Below are positions 3,765 through 61,649 of a DNA stretch of 64,000 nt, in pieces. This stretch comes from Tetracentron sinense (Eukaryota > Streptophyta > Magnoliopsida > Trochodendrales > Trochodendraceae). Within the stretch, counting starts at the first letter, position 1. Every line of letters starts with the position of its first letter. The notes beneath the pieces are model-generated. The model did no database searches, was not told where the DNA came from, and worked only from the letters and a program-made list of their open reading frames with translations. Location of the stretch: NCBI GenBank assembly GCA_015143295.1, contig CM026554.1, positions 49,102,627-49,166,626 on the forward strand, read 5' to 3'. The position numbers and the translations under genes are program-made.

Positions 3765-5153
3765 GATATTGGAGCCAAGATTTTCTTGTAGGGGCAATGG
3801 TTGATTGATAATGTGAGTATTAGTGATGAAATGTGGAGAATGATTAGGTGGGTGCAAACTATTATGGGTTTAGGGGTTTAGGGTGTAGGCCAGAGATATT
3901 TTTTTGAGGATCAAGTTCATAGGCCATCTCGTTCATACTTTCCGTACATATCCTATGAGTATTCTTTCTTCTTGTTTAGGGGTCAGCTTCCCCTTTGCTT
4001 GATGGCTATGCCCTATTAAATAATAAATAACATAGTATTAAAAAGAAAGAGTTAAGTACCATTTTGTCACCCTAAACTAAAAATATCACTGCTTAAGGCA
4101 TGAGTTGAATTTTTTTTACCAAAGAGGGTATCTATTCCAACGTTACCCTTGTAGTGTTTGGTTTTTATATGCATAGCTCAAGGGTAAATATGTTAAAAGC
4201 ATGCCCTTTCTAGTAATAAAAATACAAAGATGGCCTATTTGATATATATGTCAAAAGCATGCCCTTTTAGGTAATAAAAATATAATGCATGTCGTTTTAG
4301 GTGAAGCGCCCTTAAAAAAAAAAGGTGCTGTTACGAGCACACCAATATTTATTGATCGAAGAACATTTAAAGAAACAACTTTTTTTGAAAGAATGCCTTG
4401 TTTATGTGCATCCATACCTCGAAAACCCTAAGCCCTCTTCTAAAAATTTCTTCTCTTTCTAAGAACGATCCTACGAAGCTCCTATTACCTTTAGAGAGCC
4501 AACGAGTTGCAAAAGTATGAATTACTGTAAGCCTTTTCTCATCTTAATAACCTTTCCTACGTTCTTCAATTTTTCTCGTCTTAATAACCTTTATATATCC
4601 CGTGTTCTTCAATCTTTATTGACCCTTAATTGGGTTTGGGTCCACGAAAGGCTAATAAATTATCATGTTTTATGGTTTTAACTAGAATGTGTATAATTAG
4701 AAATTATATATATATATATATATATTTTTATCTCTTGGTGTGTTTGTACAATTTGTTACATTTTAATGGTGTACAGTTTGTAAGTGATATATTCGGTGTC
4801 CAGTGAATAGATATTGGTGTGCTCGTAGCAACACCCTAAAACAATTCTCGGTTCAAGAGATCAGCTGCCCTCTTGCCCCATGTCTATGCATGTTAACAAA
4901 TTAAATAACTTAGGATAAATTTTAGAGGAGTGCTAGCTCCATTTACTCCAAATTTATCCATAGATGGAAGATGGATGTAATACGTGGAGATGATTCATTA
5001 TTTTAAAAGCTTAAAAAGTAAAAGTCAAATTTTTTTTGACATTTGTAGCACCCCAGTTGCGTCTATGGAAGATTTGTGACTAGGGCTAGCAAAATCCTAA
5101 TTTTTATTTTAATTTCCAAAAGTTCGGTGGCAGCTGCCCTTGGCTCCGCCCCT
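3765..5153. mobile_element. Degenerate hAT-type non-autonomous element (CAGGGGCGGAGCCAGG family)
   Basis: The left interior (3771-4050) matches the left interiors of better preserved copies at 49146 and 53786: an end like GGAGCCAAGATTTTCTTG, then a short conserved body. The right end, TTGGCTCCGCCCCTA at 5139-5153, matches the right ends of the same copies. The left terminus has decayed, so the boundary is approximate and no target duplication can be read. A second hAT-like MITE (4323-4836) is nested inside. It has no coding capacity. Confidence 0.5.
4323..4836. mobile_element. hAT-like MITE, GGGTGCTGCTAC-end family, copy 1
   Basis: About 514 bp with terminal inverted repeats: the left end reads GGTGCTGTTACGAGCACACC, and the right end, reversed, reads GGGTGTTGCTACGAGCACAC. 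Ends and interior align with the copy at 41885-43330, which has a perfect 8-bp target duplication. Here the 8-bp flanks (AAAAAAAA and TAAAACAA) match only partly. A TA microsatellite lies inside at about 4708-4726. No ORF. Confidence 0.7.
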
Positions 5154-5448
5154 ACATATTGTGGCTACATTGCCATTGATGACTGAAGAGCACAAGTCTC
5201 GGTCCCGGACCGATTAGAACTGGGTGATGACCAAAAAGATGCAGTTAAGCTAATTTACACTATCTTAAGAGTCATTCCTGGTCATCTAAAGACCTCGATT
5301 AGGAAGTTTAACCGATCAGATATGATGAACAGATCACTTTGGCATTGCTGATATAACAATCGGGTGTACCCTGGGAATCAAGTGGGTCACATTTTGGCCT
5401 TCCTCGGTAGATGTCTTGGCCTCACATTCCAAATCTTATTGAGACTAG

Positions 5449-33223: not shown

Positions 33224-34173
33224 TCGATTTTATTTTAAAAATCATGAATATGTAAAATATTATAAACTTTTATTGAAAACTAGATTTTCTCATCTTTTCA
33301 TGAGTATAACAACCAGTCTTCCAAGAAGTAGGTTTAGCCTTCACTAAGAAATAGAAATTCTTAAGATATATCTTTTAGGTTTACTTGTTTACCTAAATCT
33401 AAAATTTATAGGGGAATGGGTCATTTGAGGAGATCATGATTTTCAAATTTATGAGTCTAGTATTAGTAAAAAGTCATTTGGCACCGAATTTAGTATTTAA
33501 ATAAATGCATATAGAGCCTACCAATACGATTTAATACCATTACAATTTAAATCAATACAAACTTATTATATCACACACCTGCCATTTTGGTCTAATGGCA
33601 GGCAGTGTATGTGTATCCGCCAAGTGTGAGGGCCGAGGCCTGTGGGGTGTGGTAGTTGTTAATGCCCATCGAACTAGAGTCTATTTTGTGTGTGCAACTC
33701 GGCATACAAATCTTGTGTGCCCCCACTAATAGACATTTCATGATAATAAGAAAACAAGTTTTGCAGGGCAAATTCATATTGAATGTTTTTATTTAATATA
33801 CCCATACTCTAATAGTTAACTGCACACACCATATGGCCTCATTGAATTGCCCAGCTAACATGATAGGTATCTAACTATTAAACATAGGTATCTAACTATT
33901 AAACAGATACTGAAAAAGCTAACAAGGGTTGTGGACCTGACCTGACCGTATTACGATATCTAAAAAATAAAACAAATTTGTTATCTCATCTTAGCTCTCT
34001 CTCTCATGTCTTAACCATATTTACTTAGACATGATCTCATGATATACGAGATGCAGCATAGGAAGATAATCAATGTCTTGTTGAAGCCAATGGTGGAGCC
34101 ACATGGGGGCCAGGGGCCGATGCCCCCCTGAAATTTTGAAATTTTTTTTTACTATTCTATCAATAGCTTGGGA

Positions 34174-34323
34174 GAGGGGCAGAGCCAGCGGACGGGGCTC
34201 TAGCCCTCCAAACTTTTGAAAAAAAATATAACTATACAAACAGACACAAACAAACATGATGGTCCATGAACTTAGCCCTCAATTTTTTTGCCCTGCAAGA
34301 GAATTCTGGCTCTACCCCTAATT
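34174..34323. mobile_element. hAT-type MITE fragment
   Basis: The left end resembles GAGGGGCAGAGCCAGCGG and the right end reads TTCTGGCTCTACCCCTAA, the GGGGCGGAGCCAGG-type ends seen at 49146 and 53786. A companion fragment (GGTGGAGCCACATGGGGGCC, 34090) lies just to the left. No clean target duplication. Confidence 0.45.
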
Positions 34324-48864: not shown

Positions 48865-49544
48865 GTATGTTATGAATGTGATTTGTTCCTTGAAGTTACT
48901 ATATAATTTCTCTCTTATGGATTCCGGAAATGCAAATATAGAATTTTTTTTTTGATATTTTTCGTTAAATATATACATTATCCTATTGGAGGCTGGCTGA
49001 CATTAGCTTCTAAAATGTTGGAAGGTCGAAATGTTGCAGTTTCAGAAACTATGAACTGGAGAAAGTTAAAGAAATTTGGATTGCCAAAAGACGTAATTTT
49101 CACAACTAAGTTATTAGTTGTAATTATAGTTGCAGGGATGATATGCAGGGGGGGAGCCAGGATTTTCTAGTAGTGGGGGCACACAGTGGTTAATTGAAAA
49201 TGTTGTAGTAATTTTTGATAGATTTGTGGTGAATTATTAGGTGGGTATGGAATATTCCGTGTCTAGGGTTTCAGGGCGTATCCCCAAAAAAAAATTTCAT
49301 GACTATGTTCTTGGGTCATTCCATCCATATATTTTGTATATATCTGCGGGTATTATTTCTCCTTGTCTACGAGACAATTGCCCCCTTCTCTATAGATATG
49401 CCATGTAAAATAATTAAATAATATAGTATAAATTTTGTTAGGAGGCAACTGTCCATTGTCCATGATTATGTCAAATTAAATAACTAATCAACTAAGTATA
49501 GAAGATACTTTTGTTTTAAAGTTCAAGAGTTAAGATCATAGTCA

Positions 49545-49690
49545 ATTGCGATTAAACTCGGGAGAATTCAATCACACCCACATGTCAACACATGTCTCTT
49601 TTAACCCCGATTAACTATGATTAAGATTCACTAATCCATAGGATTCGACAATCTTAACCTTGGTTTATAGAAAAATATTAACCCGCCAAC
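49545..49690. repeat. Foldback repeat family, left half copy
   Basis: GTCAATTGCGATTAAACTCG, then CACATGTCAACACATGTCTC, TTAACCCCGATTAACTATG and AAGATTCACTAATCCATAGG: the left-arm blocks of the family without a right arm. Confidence 0.65.
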
Positions 49691-49782
49691 TTCAATTCCC
49701 GCCCCGTTGTGAGTGCAATCCCAAATTCTCACTATTGGACATATTCTGACTCAAAGCCAAGTCCATTCCTAGATATCGAATC

Positions 49783-50128
49783 ACAGCCATTTGTGATTGA
49801 ATTTGGGGAGAGTTCAATCGCACCCACAAGTCAACACATGTCCCTTTTAACCTATTAACGATGGTTAAGATTCACTAACCCTTAGGGTTCAATAATCTAG
49901 CCTTGGTTTTTTTTTAATATTTTAAAAACTTTTAACTCTAGTTAAGAATTTTTAAACCTTAAAGGTTAATATTTTTTTCTTAAATACCAATGTTAGATTG
50001 TTGCAACCTAAGGGTTAATGAATTTTAACATAGTTAATGGGGGGGTTACCAGGGACACATCTTGACTTGTGGGTGCGATTGAACTCTCTCCGAGTTCAAT
50101 CGCAATTGGTTGTGATTTGATTTTCCAC
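49783..50128. repeat. Foldback repeat family, best complete copy
   Basis: The arms are complementary over more than 120 bp. Left: GAATCACAGCCATTTGTGAT, GAGAGTTCAATCGCACCC, ACAAGTCAACACATGTCCC, GATTCACTAACCCTTAGGG. Right, reversed: AATCACAACCAATTGCGAT, GAGAGTTCAATCGCACCC, ACAAGTCAAGATGTGTCCC. The centre is AT-rich. No coding sequence; such long-arm foldbacks are often Mutator-like, but I could not read a 9-bp duplication. Confidence 0.75.
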
Positions 50129-50221
50129 TCACATGACTATATTTATAAATAAAAAAATCAGTTTTTACAAAATTTGAGTGGGGGGCACGTGCCCCAACCT
50201 GGCTCCGCCCCTGATGATATG

Positions 50222-51127: not shown

Positions 51128-54100
51128 ATGGCACAGGCACAGGCACAAGAAACAAGGGAAAGTCCAAGGATTCCAAGTTGTGATGCTTACTTTGAGACTA
51201 TCCAAACCAGGAAAAAATTACCATACTCGTTACAGGAGTCTTTGACTGCTGCATTTGCAAAGATTCCAGTTTCATCTTTCCCAGATGTTCCAGGGGGCAA
51301 AGGTGAATCCTGTTCTTTTATTTAATTCCATAACTCTATAGTTTTCGGTGTTCATGAAGTTGAGCTGAATTAATACATACGGTTCCTCGCATTATTTCTT
51401 TTGCAGTGATCGAAATTCTAGCAGACACATCTGTTGCTGATGCAGTTAAAATTCTGTCTGAATGCAACATCATGTCCGCTCCTGTGAGAAACCCAGATGC
51501 AGGAACTAGTTTTGACTGGAGAGAAAGGTACCTAGGGATCATAGACTATTCGGCAATCATTCTGTGGGTATTAGAGAGTGCGGAACTTGCTGCAGTTGCT
51601 TTTTCGGCAGGTTCTGCAACAGCCGCTGGAGTTGGTGCTGGTGCTGTTGGTGCTCTTGGGGCACTAGCATTGGGTGCAACAGGTCCTATTGCAGTTGCTG
51701 GGCTAACTGTCGCTGCGGCCGGTGCAGCTTTGGCCGGTGGCATGGCTGCAGATAGAGGGATGGGAAAGGATGCTCCCACTGCTGCTGATTCTTTGGGAGA
51801 GGACTTTTACAAAGTTCTCCTTCAAGAAGAACCTTTTAAGTCAACCACAGTAAGTGTTTTTTTGCTTATATAGGTTGTTTCTGGCCAAGTTTATATTTTA
51901 ATCTGCCCATTTCACATCAATTGTTGCAGAATTTTAATTTTATTATTCTTAATAAAGAAAGATATATAGCCCACAGTCAACATGCCTGCATATAGCGATT
52001 AGTGGGGAGCAGAATTCTAATTTGCTGGTTCTGGCATTTACCCCTTCTATGGGAAAATTCACGTATATGTGTGACAATAGCCTCCTGTGTATGCATTACA
52101 TACCTCAAACAATATTGGTGAATATAGAATTTGCATAACTTCTTGGTTGTGGGACATGGATACATTATTGTTGTTTCCTAGTTGAAACAATTTTTCCTCT
52201 TGGCAACACCATTTTATTATATTCTATATTGGGTTCTGTTTCTGATATTAACTCTTGTTTCAGGTGAAGTCAATCCTTAAATCCTACCGCTGGGCTCCTT
52301 TCCTTCCTATTGCAACGGACAGTTCCATGTTGAGCGTCTTATTGCTGCTCTCGAAATACAGATTGAGGAATGTACCTGTAATTGAGATGGGAAAACCTTT
52401 TATTAAGAATTTCATTACTCAATCGGCAGTAGTTCAAGGTCTTGAACAATGCAAGGGAAGGGATTGGTTCGATTGCATTGCTGCTCGTCCTATTTCTGAT
52501 TTGGGACTTCCTTTTATGTCTTGTGATCAGGTGAGATTTCCATCACGGATTTTGTTTTTCTTCAATAGCAAAATTAGCTTTTGATTTATTTGCTTTAAAT
52601 AGCCATAAAGCTGCAGTTACTGCCTGTAAATTATGAATCTCGATTTTAAAGTATATATTGAACATTTCTCTTGTATGATGCTAAATTCTATTCAGTGAGT
52701 ACTTTTTTTAATGCGGGACAGACCACCACCTACATACCAATTGCACATTTGTATGGTGTGCAGTTGCTGTGGTCATCCCTCTTTCCTTAAGCGGCTGGAT
52801 AGACCTCATACATAAGGCGTTTCATATATCAGGATGGTGATGGGGGTACAAAGGGGTCACAGCTACTTACATTGTGAGAAATCTGTACTCGGCAAAGCTT
52901 TTAAGCTATAGAGGGAATCTCGTTTCTATCTCAGTCCCATTAGAGTTCCTGTGATCCCTGTGATTATTCATGGTTCTCCATCCTCATCTGTTTTTCTATG
53001 ATCTTCTTTACTTTTTCTTGCAACCACTTAAGAAGGTTGATCTGTGATCAATTATCCAGGCTTAGCCAACCATTTCTCAATCATGTTAAGATACCTCCCT
53101 GGTTGCTATAGTGGATTTGTGTATCCCCGTTGTGGGAGTGGACTTGGTTTCGAGTCCACAAAGGGTGAGACGGTTGATATGCCCACCACTTTAACTTGAC
53201 TACTAATATACTAACTAAGGTTGTGACCTAACTGTGTGACAAGTACCAAAAAAGGGGGAAAATTGTTTATGTTAAGAAAGATGTGGGTGGCATGTCATAT
53301 ATCTGTGATGATTTTTTTCTCTGGCTTGTCATTGGATATGGAGTTCTAAGAATGTTATTCTGCCTGTGGTTATCAGGTTATTAGTATCAAGAGTGACGAG
53401 CTGATTCTAGAAGCTTTCAAGCGTATGAGAGACAACCAAATTGGTGGCCTTCCTGTCGTAGAGGGACCGAATAGGAAGATCGTTGGGAACATAAGCATAC
53501 GTGACATCAGATTCTTGTTGCTTGAACCTGGGCTTTTCTCCAATTTCAGGTATTTTGAGTTCAAAGTGAGTTTCAACCAAACACATTGAGGGTGCCCACC
53601 AGTTTATACCAACCTTTTTTTTTTCTTTGGTAAGAAGATTATACCGACCTTATACTCGTACTTAGTGCTGCACATGCATGGATGGATCCCATCAATTTTA
53701 TGATATTAGTATACTTTTAGTGCGACCTGTTTAGAACAATTAGGCCGGTTACACTAAATCGCCTCACAGGCTTCCTATTTAGAACCAGGAGCGGAACCAG
53801 GATTTTCTTGGGGGCAAACAATGGGTTGATTTATAAATTATAATGTTAGTAATTATCATTGATGGGTTTGTGAAGAATGATTAGGTGGATACGATATATT
53901 CTTGGTCCAAGGAGTTGATGAGAAACCACACACCTTTCCCGTCTATGTGCAAATTAATGGTATAACAAGTTGTGAAGAATAAAAATCAATTGAAGCAATT
54001 CACACACACAAAAATCAGCAAACACAATAAGAAGCATACCACGATTTTTAACGTGAAAAACCCACTAGTGTAGAGGGAAAAACCACGGGACTAAGTCCGG

Positions 54101-57100
54101 TAAAATCTTCCACCATGAGTAAAATAATGGGGTTACACGAGATCTCTCTAGACAATCCTAGAGGATTCTAACATCAAGTGATAAAATCACTTGGATTACA
54201 ATAAAGATTCACTAAATAAAGTGGATAAAACAAGTAAATTGAGATTGCTCACCTCAAAGGATTAGAATAACTTGCACAATGGAGAGTAATTTTCCTTCTC
54301 CAAACTTCACCCTTTGTTGTAGAGAAAACTCCCAAAACTAGAGTCTTCTTAAAGAGAGAGAGAAAATCTCTTCTCTTGGCAAAATCGTGAGTTTCTAGTG
54401 TGTGTAGAGAAAATATCTCGAAGTCTTACATTTGGTAGATGAGGGGTATTAAATGCTCACCTACTAAGTATTTTTTCCTTTTTTCAAATAGAGTGCTAAT
54501 GGGTTCTTCTCAACCCACATGGACTCATCTCATAAAGAGGGAAGCCCAACAATCTCCCCCTCCCGACTTATGAGGAGGGCTCACCCAAACCTGTCAAGCT
54601 TCTACAATGTTCATGCTTATCCTTTGACAAAGCCTTGGTCTTCCATGTTAAAAATCGTGGTGTGCTTCTTATTGTGTTTACTGATTTTTGTGTGTGTGAA
54701 TTGCTTCAATTGATTTTTATTCTTCACAACTTGTTATACCATTAATTTGCACATAGACGGGAAAGGTGTGTGGTTTCTCATCAAGTGGTATCAGAGCATA
54801 GATTTAATTATTTCGTGTGTAAATCATGAAGGCAAGCACAAGTCGTATGATAAGTTTGAATGGGAGCAATTGGATAATTTTGAAAGCCAAAATGGAAGAC
54901 TTATTGTATTGCAAGAACTTATATGCACCGGTAGAAGGTGATGAGGCAAACTAAAGGATATGGAAGATGTTGAGTGGAAAAGCTTGACCAGAAAGCCGTT
55001 GGGTTTATTCGGCAATGGTTGGATGATAGTGTTTTTCATCCATGTTTCTACGGAAACCTCAGCAAACTTACTTTGGAAGAAATTGGAAGGGTTGTATAAG
55101 AGAAATACCGCAGGAAACAAAGCTTTCTTAATTCGGAAGCTTGTGAATTTAAAGTACAAAGAGCGTAGTTCTATTGCCGAACATCTAAATGAGATACAAA
55201 GTATTGTGAATCAACTCTCCTCTATGAAGATTGAGTTAGATGACGAGTTACAAGCCTTGTTACTACTCAGTTCATCGCCTGACAGTTGGGAGACTTTGGT
55301 GGTGTCTCTTAGTAATTCTGTGCCAGATGAGATTGTCACTATGAGACTAGTAACTAGCAGTTTGTTAAATGAAGAAACAAGAAGGAAAGTTTTAGGTTCT
55401 TCACAATCAAATGCACTTGTTACAGAAAATAGAGGAAGATGTAAAAGCAGAAAGCCTTACAACCGTGAGAAGTCAATAGGAAGATCTAAATCAAGAAAGG
55501 AAATTACTTGTTATAAAGCCCGGTCATTGTAGAAATGAATGTCGAAAGCTCAAGAGAGAGCAAAAGAAAGAAAAATGAGAAGCAAGGAGACAAAGACACT
55601 ACTACAGCAGTCCCAGAAGGTGACATCATCTTCTTCTCAGGGTGTGAGAAGGAATGTCTGAGTCTCACTTGTCAGGATACAGATAGGGTGATTGACGCAG
55701 GTGCTTCATTCCATGCTACTCCTAGGAAGGAGTTCTTTACTTCTTACAGTTCAGGAGATGATGGGGTTGTAAGAATGGGAAACAGTGGCATTTCCAAGAT
55801 TGTAGGCATTGGTGATATTTGCCTTGAAACCAATGTTGGTTGCAAACTGGTTCTCAAGGATATTCGACATGTGTCAGATCTTCATCTAAATCTAATTTCA
55901 GCAGGGAAGTTGGATGATGAAGGCTATGACAACCACTTTGGTAAAAGACAATGGAAGCTTACCAGAGAGTCACTTGTAGTTGCATGAGGAAACAAGTGTT
56001 GCAGCCTCTACAAGACAAAGGCACAGCTATACAAGGGTGAGGTGAACACAGTAGAGAAGAATGTAGCAACTGAGTTGTGGCATAAGCGGCTTGGCCACCT
56101 GAACGAGAAGGGATTGCAAATTCTTGCCAAGAAGCAACTTCTTCCAGACATGAAAGGTAAGCATTTAGATCGTTGTGTTCATTGTTTAGCTGGTAAACAA
56201 CATAGAGTTTCTTTTCATAAGAACTTACCTAGAAGAAAAACTGAAATTTTGGATCTTGTTTATTCTGATGTATGTAGTCCTATGAAAGTTAAAACCTTAG
56301 GTGGTGCTTCATATTTTGTTACTTTCATAGATGATGCTTCTAGAAAAGTTTGGGTATATGCTTTGAAAACTAAAGATCAGTTCTTTGAGGTTTTCAAGAA
56401 TTTTCATGCAAAGGTTGAAAGAGAAATAGGAAGATCTCTCAAGTGCATCCGTACAGACAATTGTGGTGAGTACATAGGACAGTTTGAACAGTATTGTATT
56501 AGTCATGGCATTCGGCATGAGCAATCAGTTCCTAAGACTCCACAACACAATGGTGTAGCAGAGAGGATGAACCGCACAATAGTGGAAAGAAGCAGGTGTA
56601 TGCTTTCACATGCCAAGTTATCTAGACAATATTGGGGTGAAGCCATGAATATTGCCGTATACTTGATTAATTTATCTTCTTCATCTGCTTTGAATGGAGA
56701 TGTAGCAGCAAGTGTATGTACAGGGAGAGATGTCTCATATGGACATTTGAAAGTGTTCGGTTGCAAAGCATTTGTACATGTACTCAAAGATGAGAGGTCA
56801 AAGCTTGATGATAAGACCAGACAATGTATTTTCTTAGGTTATGCAGATGAGAAATTTGGTTACAAACTTTAAGACCCAGTTGAAAAGAAGGTTGTTAGAA
56901 GTAGAGATGTGATATTCTTTGAAGACCAGACAATTGAAGAATTTGATAAGGTTGAAAAGCCACAACCTTATGTAGACAACCTCATTGATCTTGACCCAGT
57001 TCCTTGTCTCATGGTACATGATGATAGAGAGGTTGTCCGAGATCATGATGACACAGTTGGTGATGATGCTCCTACAGAGATTGCAGATCATGTAGATTTT

Positions 57101-60100
57101 CCAGAGCAGGGGGAGCATCCTCTTCCAGAACCACCAACTCCATCACTTAAGAAAGTCTTCTAGACAACACAAGTCATCTCAGAAGTACTCTCCGTTAGAG
57201 TATGTTTTGCGTACAGATGAGAGTGAATCAGAAAACTACCAAGAAGTTCAAGAAAGTGAGCACAAGGCAGAGTGAATGAAAGTTATGCAAGAAGAGATGG
57301 ATTCTTTGCATAAGAACCATACTTATGATTTGGTGAAGCTACCAAAGGGTAAGAAAACACTTAAGAATAAGTGGGTTTTCAAGTTGAAGACAGAAGAAAA
57401 AATCTCACAACCAAGGTACAAAGCAAGGATGGTTGTGAAGGGCTTTGGACAAAAGAAGGGCATTGACTTTGATGAGATTTTTTCACCCGTAGTGAAGATG
57501 TCATCCATTCGGGTTATATTGGGATTGGCTACAAGCATGAACCTAGAGATTGAGCAACTAGATGTCAAAACAGCCTTCCTTCATGGTGATTTGGAATAAG
57601 AAATATATATGGAGCAGCCGGAAGGTTTTAAAGTCAAATACAAAGAGCACTTGATTTGTAAACCAAGGAAAAGCCTATATGGGTTGAAGCAAGCCCCAAG
57701 GCAGTGGTACAAGAAGTTTGATTCCTTCATGACAGATCATGGTTATAGCAAAACATCTTCAGATCATTGTGTATTCACCAAGAAGTTCTTTGATGGTGAT
57801 TTTATTATTTTATTGCTTTATGTTGATGATATGTTGATTGTTGGTCAAGATGCTAACAAGACTAGCAAGTTAAAGCAAGAGCTAAGCAAATCCTTTGCCA
57901 TGAAGGATTTAGGGCCCGCACGACAAATTTTAGGCATGCGAATTTCTTGTGATAGGAAAGCCAAAAGATTGTGGTTATCACAAGAAAGATACATTGAGAG
58001 GGTTTTAGAAAGGTTCAACATGGATAATGCAAAGTCAGTTGGGTCTCCACTTGCAAGTCACTTTAAGTTAAGTTCCAAACAATGTCCATCTACAAAGGAG
58101 GAGAAAGGAGAATTGATGAAGATCCCTTATGCCTCAGTTGTAGGGAGTCTTATGTATGCTATGGTGTGCACAAGACCCACATTGCATATACAGTTGGAGT
58201 TGTTAGCAGGTTTTTTGCCAATCCTGGCAAAGAGCATTGGGCAGTTGTCAAGTGGATTCTTAAGTATCTCAAAGGTACATCCAAAATGTGTTTGAGTTTT
58301 GGTGATGGTAAACCTATGTCGGAGGGCTACACAGATGTAGACATGGCTTGAGATGGAGATACAAGGAAGTCTATTTCAGGTTATCTATTCACTTTTGCAG
58401 GGAGGAGCTGTATCATGGCAGTCTAGGCTCCAAAAGTGCAATGCTTTATCAACTACGGAATATATTGCAGCTACAAAAGCGTGCAAGGAGATGTTGTGGA
58501 TGAAGAGATTTTTTCAGGAATTGGGGTTACAACAAGACAAACATGTTGTCTATTGTGATAGTCAGAGTGTCATCCACCTAAGTAAAAATGTCAATTTCCA
58601 TTATAAGACAAAACACATTGATGTGAGGTATCATTGGATACGTGATGTCATAGAAGAAAAGATATTACAACTTGAAAAAATCCATACTGAAGACAATACC
58701 TCAAATATGATGACTAAGGCTTTGCCAAAGGATAAGCATGAACATTGTAGAAACTTGGCAGGTTTGGGTGAACCCTCATCATAAGTCGGGAGGGGGAGAT
58801 TTTTGGGCTTCTCTCTTTATGAGATGGACCCATGTGGGTTGAGAAGAGCCCATTAGCACTCTCTATTTGAAAAAATGGGAAAGTACTTGATAGGTGAGCA
58901 TTTAATGCCCATCACCTACCAAATACAAGGGTTAGAGATATTTTCTCTACACACACTAGAAACTCACGGTTTTGCCAAGAGAAGAGATTTTCTCTCTCTT
59001 GAAGAAGAAGACTCTAGTTTTGGGGGTTTTCTCTACAACAAATGGTGGAGTTTGGAGAAGAAAAATTACTCTCCATTGTGCAAGTTATTCTAATCCTTTG
59101 AGGTGAGCAATCTCAATTCACTTGTTTTATCCATTTTATTTAGTGAAGTTTTATTGTAATCCAAGATTTTATCACTTGATGTTGGAATCCTCTATAGTTG
59201 TCTAAAGAGACCTTGTAGAACCCCCATTATTTTACTCATAGTGAAAGATTTTACCGGACTTGGTCCTGTGGTTTTTCCCTCTACACTATAGGGTTTACCA
59301 CGTTAAAAATCGTAGTGTGCTTCTGATTGTGTTTGCTGATTTTTGTGTGTGTGAATTGCTTCAATTGATTTTTATTCTTCACAACTTCTTATACCATTAA
59401 TTTGCACATAGACAGGAAAGGTGTGTGGTTTTCCATCAGGGGTGTTTGGTTTTGGGAGCGTAACCCTTGAATTTTTTTTAAAGGCCAAGTTTGTGGGTCA
59501 TCTCATCAGTTTGTGTCCCTTTGTAAAGATTATTTGTTTTTAAGTTGGGGACAGCTGCTCCCCTTGCCCATGGCTATGCCCTCTTAAATTGAATAATATA
59601 GTATAAAATTTAGCCTTTTTTAAAAAAAGTTCAAGGAGTGGCTGCCCCCATGCCTATACGCTTTTAAATTAAATAATATAGTATCCATTTAGTTTTTTTT
59701 TCCTCGAAAGTTCAGGGGTGTCCCCACTTGGCTCCGCCCCTGCTTAGAATGTTAGTTCTTTCAATATAAAATACTTTAGTTACAACATATCAGAAAAAAC
59801 TGGACCTGGAAGAATTTCATAAGAATCTGTGAATACACAAGAAAAGTTGTTTGTCCTTGCAGTGTTCCATGTAATCTACTTTGGATTTTCTTCTTTCCTT
59901 GCAGGCAGCTCACTGTGAAGGATTTCATGGAAACCATTGCTTCAACAACAGAAGAAACTGGGAAAGTTGTCCCACCTATAACATGCAAGCTTGATTCGTG
60001 TCTTGGTAACGTGATCGACAGTCTCGCTTCCAAATCAGTTCACAGGATTTATGTAGTAGCTGATGAAGAAGATGAAGTTGCCGGTGTCATTACTCTCAGA

Positions 60101-60187
60101 GATGTGATTTCTTGCTTCATCTTTGAGCCTCCTAATCACTTTGAGAAGTACTTTGGCTTTGCCATGAAAGAAATGTTGAACCAGTGA
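51128..60187 (+). CDS. KING1: SnRK1 regulatory subunit gamma-1 (KING1-like), CBS-domain protein
   Basis: Related to the gamma subunit of the plant SNF1/AMPK energy-sensing kinase; Arabidopsis KING1 interacts with the kinase, though the hybrid beta-gamma protein is the canonical gamma subunit. Coding exons: 51128-51302, 51407-51849, 52264-52530, 53377-53549 and 59905-60187, all GT-AG and in frame, about 446 residues. CBS motifs: VIEILADTSVADAVKILSEC (split by a Gly/Ala-rich stretch after LESAELAAVAFSAG that is typical of the family), YRWAPFLPIATDSSMLSVLL, VISIKSDELILEAFKRMRDN with LPVVEG, and KLDSCLGNVIDSLASKSVHR with GVITLRDVISCFIF. ATG 51128 begins MAQAQAQETRESPRIPSCDA; the IPSCDAYFE..Q.RKKLP segment is conserved. 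Intron 4 is 6,355 bp because of a nested hAT and copia insertion. All splice sites and the frame are intact, so the gene is probably functional. Confidence 0.93.
52531..53376. other. KING1-like gene, intron 3
   Basis: 846-bp intron from a GTGAGA donor to a TATCAG acceptor. No recognisable element inside. Confidence 0.8.
53916..54551 (-). repeat. Copia element 2: inverted LTR at the 5' end
   Basis: 636 bp; its reverse complement aligns along its length with the 3' LTR 58801-59438. Reversed, it starts TGTTGGGCTTCCCTCTTTAT and ends GTGTGTGGTTTCTCATCA. Confidence 0.9.
54552..54640 (-). repeat. Copia element 2: inverted polypurine tract and pol end
   Basis: Reversed, it reads CCAAGGCTTTGTCAAAGGAT through GGTGAGCCCTCCTCATAAGT to the polypurine tract CGGGAGGGGGAGAT, matching 58718-58800 (end of RNase H plus polypurine tract). 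This shows that the inverted piece came from the 3' end of an element, not from an LTR alone. Confidence 0.88.
54643..54783 (+). repeat. Copia element 2: partial direct 5' LTR
   Basis: The last 141 bp of the LTR in direct orientation (CCATGTTAAAAATCGTGG ... GTGTGGTTTCTCATCA), directly followed by the primer-binding site. It is nearly identical to the adjacent inverted copy and differs more from the 3' LTR. Confidence 0.88.
54786..54797 (+). other. Copia element 2: primer-binding site
   Basis: TGGTATCAGAGC, complementary to the 3' end of initiator methionine tRNA, two bases after the LTR end. Confidence 0.9.
54826..55560 (+). pseudogene. Copia element 2: gag (frameshifted)
   Basis: ATG 54826 opens MKASTSRMISLNGSNWIILK, the usual start of Tnt1-like gag, then reaches a stop after EGDEAN because of a frameshift near 54950. 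The frame starting at 54960 carries most of gag: HVSTETSANLLWKKLEGLYK, NKAFLIRKLVNLKYKERSSI, ELQALLLLSSSPDSWETLVV. A short stretch near 55010 is out of frame and then restored. The zinc knuckle is damaged: CYK is followed in another frame by PGHCRNEC, so the second cysteine is lost and the frame shifts at about 55520. Confidence 0.88.
55535..57163 (+). pseudogene. Copia element 2: protease and integrase
   Basis: Protease reads RVIDAGASFHATP where functional relatives have (W)VIDSGASFHAT: the catalytic DSG is DAG. A stop at 55985-55987 (TGA, probably from CGA) separates it from integrase, which has the HHCC zinc region (WHKRLGHLN...CVHCLAGKQ), D in LVYSDVCSPM, D in IRTDNCGEYIG (family GGEY) and E in NGVAERMNRTI. 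A stop at 56870-56872 falls after KFGYKL; the same frame resumes DPVEKKVVRSRDVIFFEDQ and ends at 57161-57163. Confidence 0.9.
57164..58784 (+). pseudogene. Copia element 2: reverse transcriptase and RNase H
   Basis: RT from 57276: LKNKWVFKLKTEEKISQPRY, EQLDVKTAFLHGDLE, stop at 57597-57599, then [31 protein letters not shown] and an intact catalytic LLYVDDMLIVG. A frameshift near 58170 moves GVVSRFFANPGKEHWAVVKW into another frame up to a stop at 58349-58351, and another near 58402 restores RNase H (GGAVSWQSRLQKCNALSTTE, CDSQSVIHLSKNVNF, HIDVRYHWIRD, MMTKALPKDK) to 58784. The YVDD box is intact but the reading frame is not. Confidence 0.92.
58786..58800 (+). other. Copia element 2: polypurine tract
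   Basis: The purine run CGGGAGGGGGAGAT ends directly before the 3' LTR. Confidence 0.8.
58801..59438 (+). repeat. Copia element 2: 3' LTR
   Basis: 638 bp from TTTTGGGCTTCTCTCTTTAT (aligned with TGTTGGGCTTCC in the inverted copy, so the TG start has mutated) to GTGTGGTTTTCCATCA. It contains (A/T)CCGGACTTGGTCCTGTGG and the GTGTGTGTGAATTGC block shared by all three LTR copies. Confidence 0.9.
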
Positions 60188-61318: not shown

Positions 61319-61504
61319 AGATTTGTGAGAGCATTGAGGCTTTCCTTGGGTTTTGATCTTTTTTATGTAGGCTCTTTTTTTCCTCTTGTATTCTTCTTTT
61401 TACTTAGTAAAGAGATTTGTGAGAGCATTGAGGCTTTCTTTGGGTTTTGATCTTTTTTATGTAGACTCTTTTTTTCCTCTTGTATTCTTCTCTTTACTTA
61501 GTAA
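61319..61504. repeat. 94-bp tandem duplication in the solo LTR
   Basis: Two copies starting AGATTTGTGAGAGCATTGAG at 61319 and 61413, ending CTTTACTTAGTAA, with three or four differences (such as TTTCCTTGG/TTTCTTTGG). A recent local duplication. Confidence 0.9.
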
Positions 61505-61649
61505 ATTTACTTTGATCACTTCAACTGTGGACATAGGCTTTTAAATCGAACCAAGTAAATCTTGATTTGTAATTTGTGTTTTTGTTTGCTATTATTATTT
61601 TGTCATTGTCGTCGATTCTATTTATTAGGCATTTCCCCACAACACTTCA

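Follow-up and report, generated by a model that had tools for sequence, protein, structure and literature searches.

Among the closest described systems are the template-switching complexes Angela, Squiq and Opie, in which an abnormal switch preceded a single integration (Sabot and Schulman, 2007; PMC1950507). These are direct dimers with three LTRs, one of them internal, and two complete cores in the same direction within one 5-bp target site duplication (TSD), and their outer LTRs are highly similar. The recombinant complex elements of the same study (PMC1950507) are post-insertional fusions of LTR pieces of related elements and have no common TSD. In the autointegration of Ty1 and retroviruses, as described in the available parts of PMC2644782 and PMC4751563, an activated LTR end is joined to an internal site, yielding deletion or inversion circles, some with inverted, LTR-bearing cDNA. 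HIV-1 minus-strand strong-stop DNA can self-prime on minus-strand DNA, which inverts the strand, and the accessible part of PMC4668388 presents the products as short aberrant DNA, not as integrated copies. Finally, opposed LTR copies with the potential to form hairpin RNA are found in the Arabidopsis element EVD, where the facing LTRs arose by a nested second insertion, and in the Mu killer inverted duplication (PMC11624286, consulted in part); in the same portion of that paper LTR hairpins are considered triggers of EVD silencing, with siRNA production untested there.

In the 64-kb stretch of DNA analyzed here (the window), a decayed Copia element lies whole and in sense direction within the intron of a gene, and in place of its left end it carries its right end in inverted orientation. 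The features of the locus are as follows:

53377-53549 and 59905-60187, plus strand: two CBS-domain exons (PF00571, E = 2.4e-10 and 2.2e-07)
53550-59904, plus strand: GT..AG intron between these exons (reading frames, splice sites)
53786-59742, no strand: hAT-like transposon hosting the insertion; ends CAGGAGCGGAACCA / TGGCTCCGCCCCTG, flanking 8-mers TTTAGAAC / CTTAGAAT
53911-53915, no strand: left target duplication, GGAGT (sequence)
53916-59438: the composite, a decayed plant-type Copia element
53916-54551, minus strand: complete LTR, inverted, U5 end outermost (sequence, BLAST, repeat finder)
54552-54640, minus strand: inverted polypurine tract (PPT; 54553-54564) with ~76 bp from the pol end (sequence, BLAST)
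54637-54641, no strand: junction of inverted pol and direct LTR (base-by-base table)
54637-54783, plus strand: direct LTR, last ~143-147 bp (BLAST, repeat finder)
54786-54797, plus strand: primer binding site (PBS) TGGTATCAGAGC (sequence)
54945-58295, plus strand: broken gag-pol body (ORFs, four open pieces scanned separately)
58788-58799, plus strand: PPT GGGAGGGGGAGA (sequence)
58801-59438, plus strand: right (3') LTR (sequence, BLAST)
59439-59443, no strand: right target duplication, GGGGT (sequence)

Upstream of the exons, an open piece at 51364-51870 matched no Pfam family, and just downstream of the CBS-domain gene lie two tandem 93-bp repeats (61319-61411 and 61413-61505; 97% identical).

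An earlier note on this DNA had read the left side as an inverted LTR, PPT and pol end followed by a direct LTR piece and a PBS, and BLAST, a repeat finder and the sequence itself confirmed this arrangement. The right LTR matched three places in the window: itself, the inverted left edge (54549-53916; 90.3% over 638 columns) and the direct piece at 54637-54783 (93.2% over 147 columns), the last two being the alignments that the note had called for. As this BLAST query started 2 bp inside the LTR, the LTR limits were taken from the sequence, which agrees with the proposed 53916-54551 and 58801-59438; the right LTR has CA at its end and TT at its start, in place of the TG of the inverted copy. 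A query with the 3' portion of pol (57000-58802) matched itself and, inverted, 54640-54551 (93.3% over 90 columns), while 54784-57000 matched only itself in the window, and the repeat finder gave the same arrangement of LTR and pol end. The body follows Copia order, with gag, Pol_BBD, pre-integrase, integrase core, SH3-like and reverse transcriptase domains (PF14223, PF22936, PF13976, PF00665, PF25597, then PF07727). Both the domain content (gag and pol domains, integrase ahead of reverse transcriptase) and the presence of LTR, PBS, PPT and 5-bp TSD are those of Ty1/Copia elements, with one mismatch in the TSD and an abnormal left LTR. The PBS is presumably of the tRNA-Met type.

We then compared the inner junction base by base with its two sources. 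The switch, put at about 54640 in the earlier note, falls within 54637-54641, because 54640 fits pol only, 54637 fits the LTR only, 54638-54639 (GT) fit both, and the LTR fits from 54641 onward. Judging from these bases, one of the two that conflict (54637 or 54640) has changed, and added bases are unnecessary; the shared bases amount at most to GT plus partial matches. This comparison found no LTR terminus on either side of the junction. The nearest termini are ordinary boundaries, LTR-PPT at 54551 and LTR-PBS at 54783, so that the join connects two internal sites, pol to mid-LTR.

Both outer edges of the composite are U5 termini, reading ..CATCA outward, and they adjoin GGAGT and GGGGT. These 5-mers do enclose the whole composite, as had been claimed, and are identical at 4 of 5 positions; as identity of at least 4/5 also arose in 2.2% of 200,000 random 5-mer pairs drawn from the flanks, the TSD alone is only suggestive. 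Left and right flanks are not reverse complements of one another.

A further control came from the transposon that received the insertion. We take its superfamily to be hAT, and it has the short inverted ends and 8-bp TSD of that group, with a TSD match of 6/8 around 53786-59742. The 8-mers that flank a relative at 49146-50213 match perfectly (ATGATATG), and further relatives in the window gave matches at 3771-4042, 4862-4925, 5103-5158 and 34145-34282. Two diverged 55-bp direct repeats (59567-59621 and 59647-59701; 76%) also lie toward the right in the host transposon. When the flanks of the composite were joined, they aligned across the insertion site to 49146-49436 (198/311 columns identical, 64%) and to 3771-4042 (194/297 columns, 65%), and their remaining matches were partial and did not span the site. 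We also aligned the left and right flanks separately to each uninserted copy, with 100 shuffles each as a control. In the copy at ~49 kb the alignment of the left flank stops at 49268 and that of the right flank starts at 49267 (scores 52 and 44), and in the copy at ~3.8 kb they do so at 3869 and 3868 (scores 39 and 55), against shuffle maxima of 19-22. Since the separately aligned flanks meet to within 2 bp on both uninserted copies, no host DNA is missing, to a resolution of ~8-11 bases, because identity to these copies is no more than 64-65% and ~8-11 bases at the site, present in the interrupted copy, are absent from both. GGGGT lies opposite the TSD in the 3.8-kb copy in one global alignment, a weak observation as other alignments place the gaps otherwise. 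The sequence GGGGTGTTTGG on the right, which we had considered to terminate a different small transposon, aligns instead to the hAT-like host; it matches exactly once in the window, and four times with at most one mismatch versus 3.6 expected.

The arms of the composite have diverged. The two full LTR copies (inverted versus right) differ by K2P 0.095 over 632 sites, and the insertion is old, some millions of years at usual substitution rates. Over the 147 bp common to all three arms, K2P is 0.035 for inverted-direct, 0.064 for inverted-right and 0.072 for direct-right. The 12 private changes (2 inverted, 3 direct, 7 right) are not significantly uneven (P ~0.20), which gave us no grounds to derive the right LTR from a separate RNA, and on these counts the three arms appear compatible with one source. 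Later conversion between the inverted and direct pieces is possible; the closeness of that pair (0.035 versus 0.095 for inverted-right) also fits such conversion or separate sources. An exact 32-base LTR motif had no matches in genome_contigs and viral_contigs, collections of prokaryote and virus sequences.

We consider it likely that the composite arose by one integration of an already rearranged Copia cDNA into the hAT-like transposon within the intron. The anatomy, the junction, the two U5 edges and the abutting of the flanks on uninserted host-transposon copies can be read directly at the locus. The join itself was probably made before integration: the inverted right end (pol end, PPT and whole LTR) and the final ~145 bp of the 5' LTR would have been joined at ~54640, both free ends of the rearranged cDNA would thereby have become U5 termini, and integrase acting on these two ends would have left the 5-bp duplication. 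Against this explanation stand the one differing TSD base, the low identity of the host-transposon copies to the flanks together with the ~8-11 bases that they lack, and the unequal distances among the arms, which later conversion or separate sources would explain as well.

How the join was made is less clear, and a growing strand switching onto minus-strand cDNA, by fold-back or on a second cDNA in the particle, has in our estimate nearly an even chance. By this route minus-strand DNA, after copying U5 and part of the LTR past the PBS, would jump to minus-strand cDNA near the pol end and then copy the PPT and the LTR through to the U5 end. A switch between two cDNAs avoids the problem of the fold-back, whose product would somehow have to become a linear duplex with both ends free. 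If instead two unfinished cDNAs were end-joined, which seems rather unlikely to us, the sequence would be identical, and the few shared bases at the junction fit template switching and end-joining alike. A direct LTR piece that began at the 5' end of the RNA would favor template switching; as a test of such a start, three TATA-like patterns were searched for and had no match in either full LTR copy.

Several other histories were weighed against a single integration of rearranged cDNA. Two family elements could have inserted separately in opposite orientation, after which a deletion fused the 5' LTR of one element to the pol end of its neighbor. Complex elements usually originate in this way (20 recombinant versus 2 template-switching complexes in ~7 Mb of Triticeae sequence; PMC1950507), and the TSD mismatch and its 2.2% chance level suit it, but it predicts loss of host DNA between the two sites, whereas the flanks abut in two uninserted copies. 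As no host DNA is missing and two insertions followed by deletion would have removed some, a single integration at one target is highly probable, and we regard the two-insertion history as improbable. An assembly error joining repeat copies, which the repetitive nature of LTRs might invite, is quite improbable: the arms differ at ~10% of sites and so do not represent copies collapsed into each other, and the same host transposon contains both edges of the composite.

Two histories remain. A normal element might have been rearranged after integration, for instance if a template switch during replication had copied the right end, in inverted form, to the left side, and inverted duplications by this or similar routes are known in general. 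Against it, the inverted LTR stops exactly at its terminal base, where it adjoins a TSD-like 5-mer, and in the left flank the host-transposon sequence reaches the edge or comes to within 3-9 bases of it. We rejected a history in which the right end was duplicated in inverted form, because the flanks are not reverse complements of each other, and we hold any such rearrangement to be very improbable. Autointegration of the cDNA into its own body, to which the earlier note had appealed, does give inverted retroelement DNA forms, but an LTR terminus would then be expected at the inner junction, and as there is none, this mechanism is not supported. Its known products, as far as the accessible text of the cited sources goes, are circles without free ends, and here two ends met the target. 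The pol to mid-LTR join at 54637-54641 led us to reject autointegration as extremely unlikely. Thus the part of the earlier interpretation that invoked one rearranged cDNA stood, on the TSD and the flanks abutting on two uninserted copies, whereas self-integration fell, as the LTR termini lie outside.

Set beside the described systems, the composite works like a template-switching complex without being a member of that group. As in those complexes (PMC1950507), more than two LTR pieces lie within one 5-bp TSD (GGAGT/GGGGT, 4/5, with abutting flanks), but here there is one core instead of two complete ones in the same direction, the left LTR is inverted, the internal LTR is partial and both edges are U5. 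The outer LTRs, highly similar in template-switching complexes, are here 90.3% identical with K2P 0.095, a value that age or different templates fit alike. With recombinant complex elements (PMC1950507) the composite shares the fusion of LTR pieces, but it has a near-matching TSD and no host DNA missing. It resembles autointegration products in its inverted LTR-bearing form and shows neither their circles nor, going by the parts of PMC2644782 and PMC4751563 available, their LTR end at an internal site. The strand inversion recalls HIV-1 self-priming, and the opposed LTR copies recall EVD and Mu killer, although the EVD arrangement, as given in the accessible part of PMC11624286, is a nested insertion. 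Among the matches listed for open literature titles and abstract starts, which include few subscription journals, none described an inverted insertion with two U5 edges; the word 'inverted' is absent from the available part of PMC5379124, and PMC3102749, in the part available, concerns chromosomal rearrangements.

The left end also has a possible consequence at the RNA level. The segments 53916-54062 and 54637-54783 form a near-perfect 147-bp inverted pair (97% complementary over 148 nt by the repeat finder), and the predicted RNA fold of 53916-54783 has an energy of -390.3 kcal/mol, versus -189.4 +/- 7.1 kcal/mol for 20 shuffles. The intronic inverted/direct LTR pair is thus a possible natural LTR hairpin candidate. 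Transcribed with the intron, such a hairpin could be a source of small RNAs against its own family, though the larger reading that includes this role is in our view unlikely.

This locus leaves the general view of the retrotransposon life cycle as it was, and the evidence suggests that the composite represents a readable copying slip and no new type of element. To distinguish a single integration from two, copies of a host transposon can act as an internal empty-site control, and small RNAs may come from the intronic LTR hairpin, a candidate source that can be tested. If our explanation is true, strand-inverting joins arise before integration, here with both junctions still readable, and Copia integrase can insert a molecule into a chromosome by two U5 ends.
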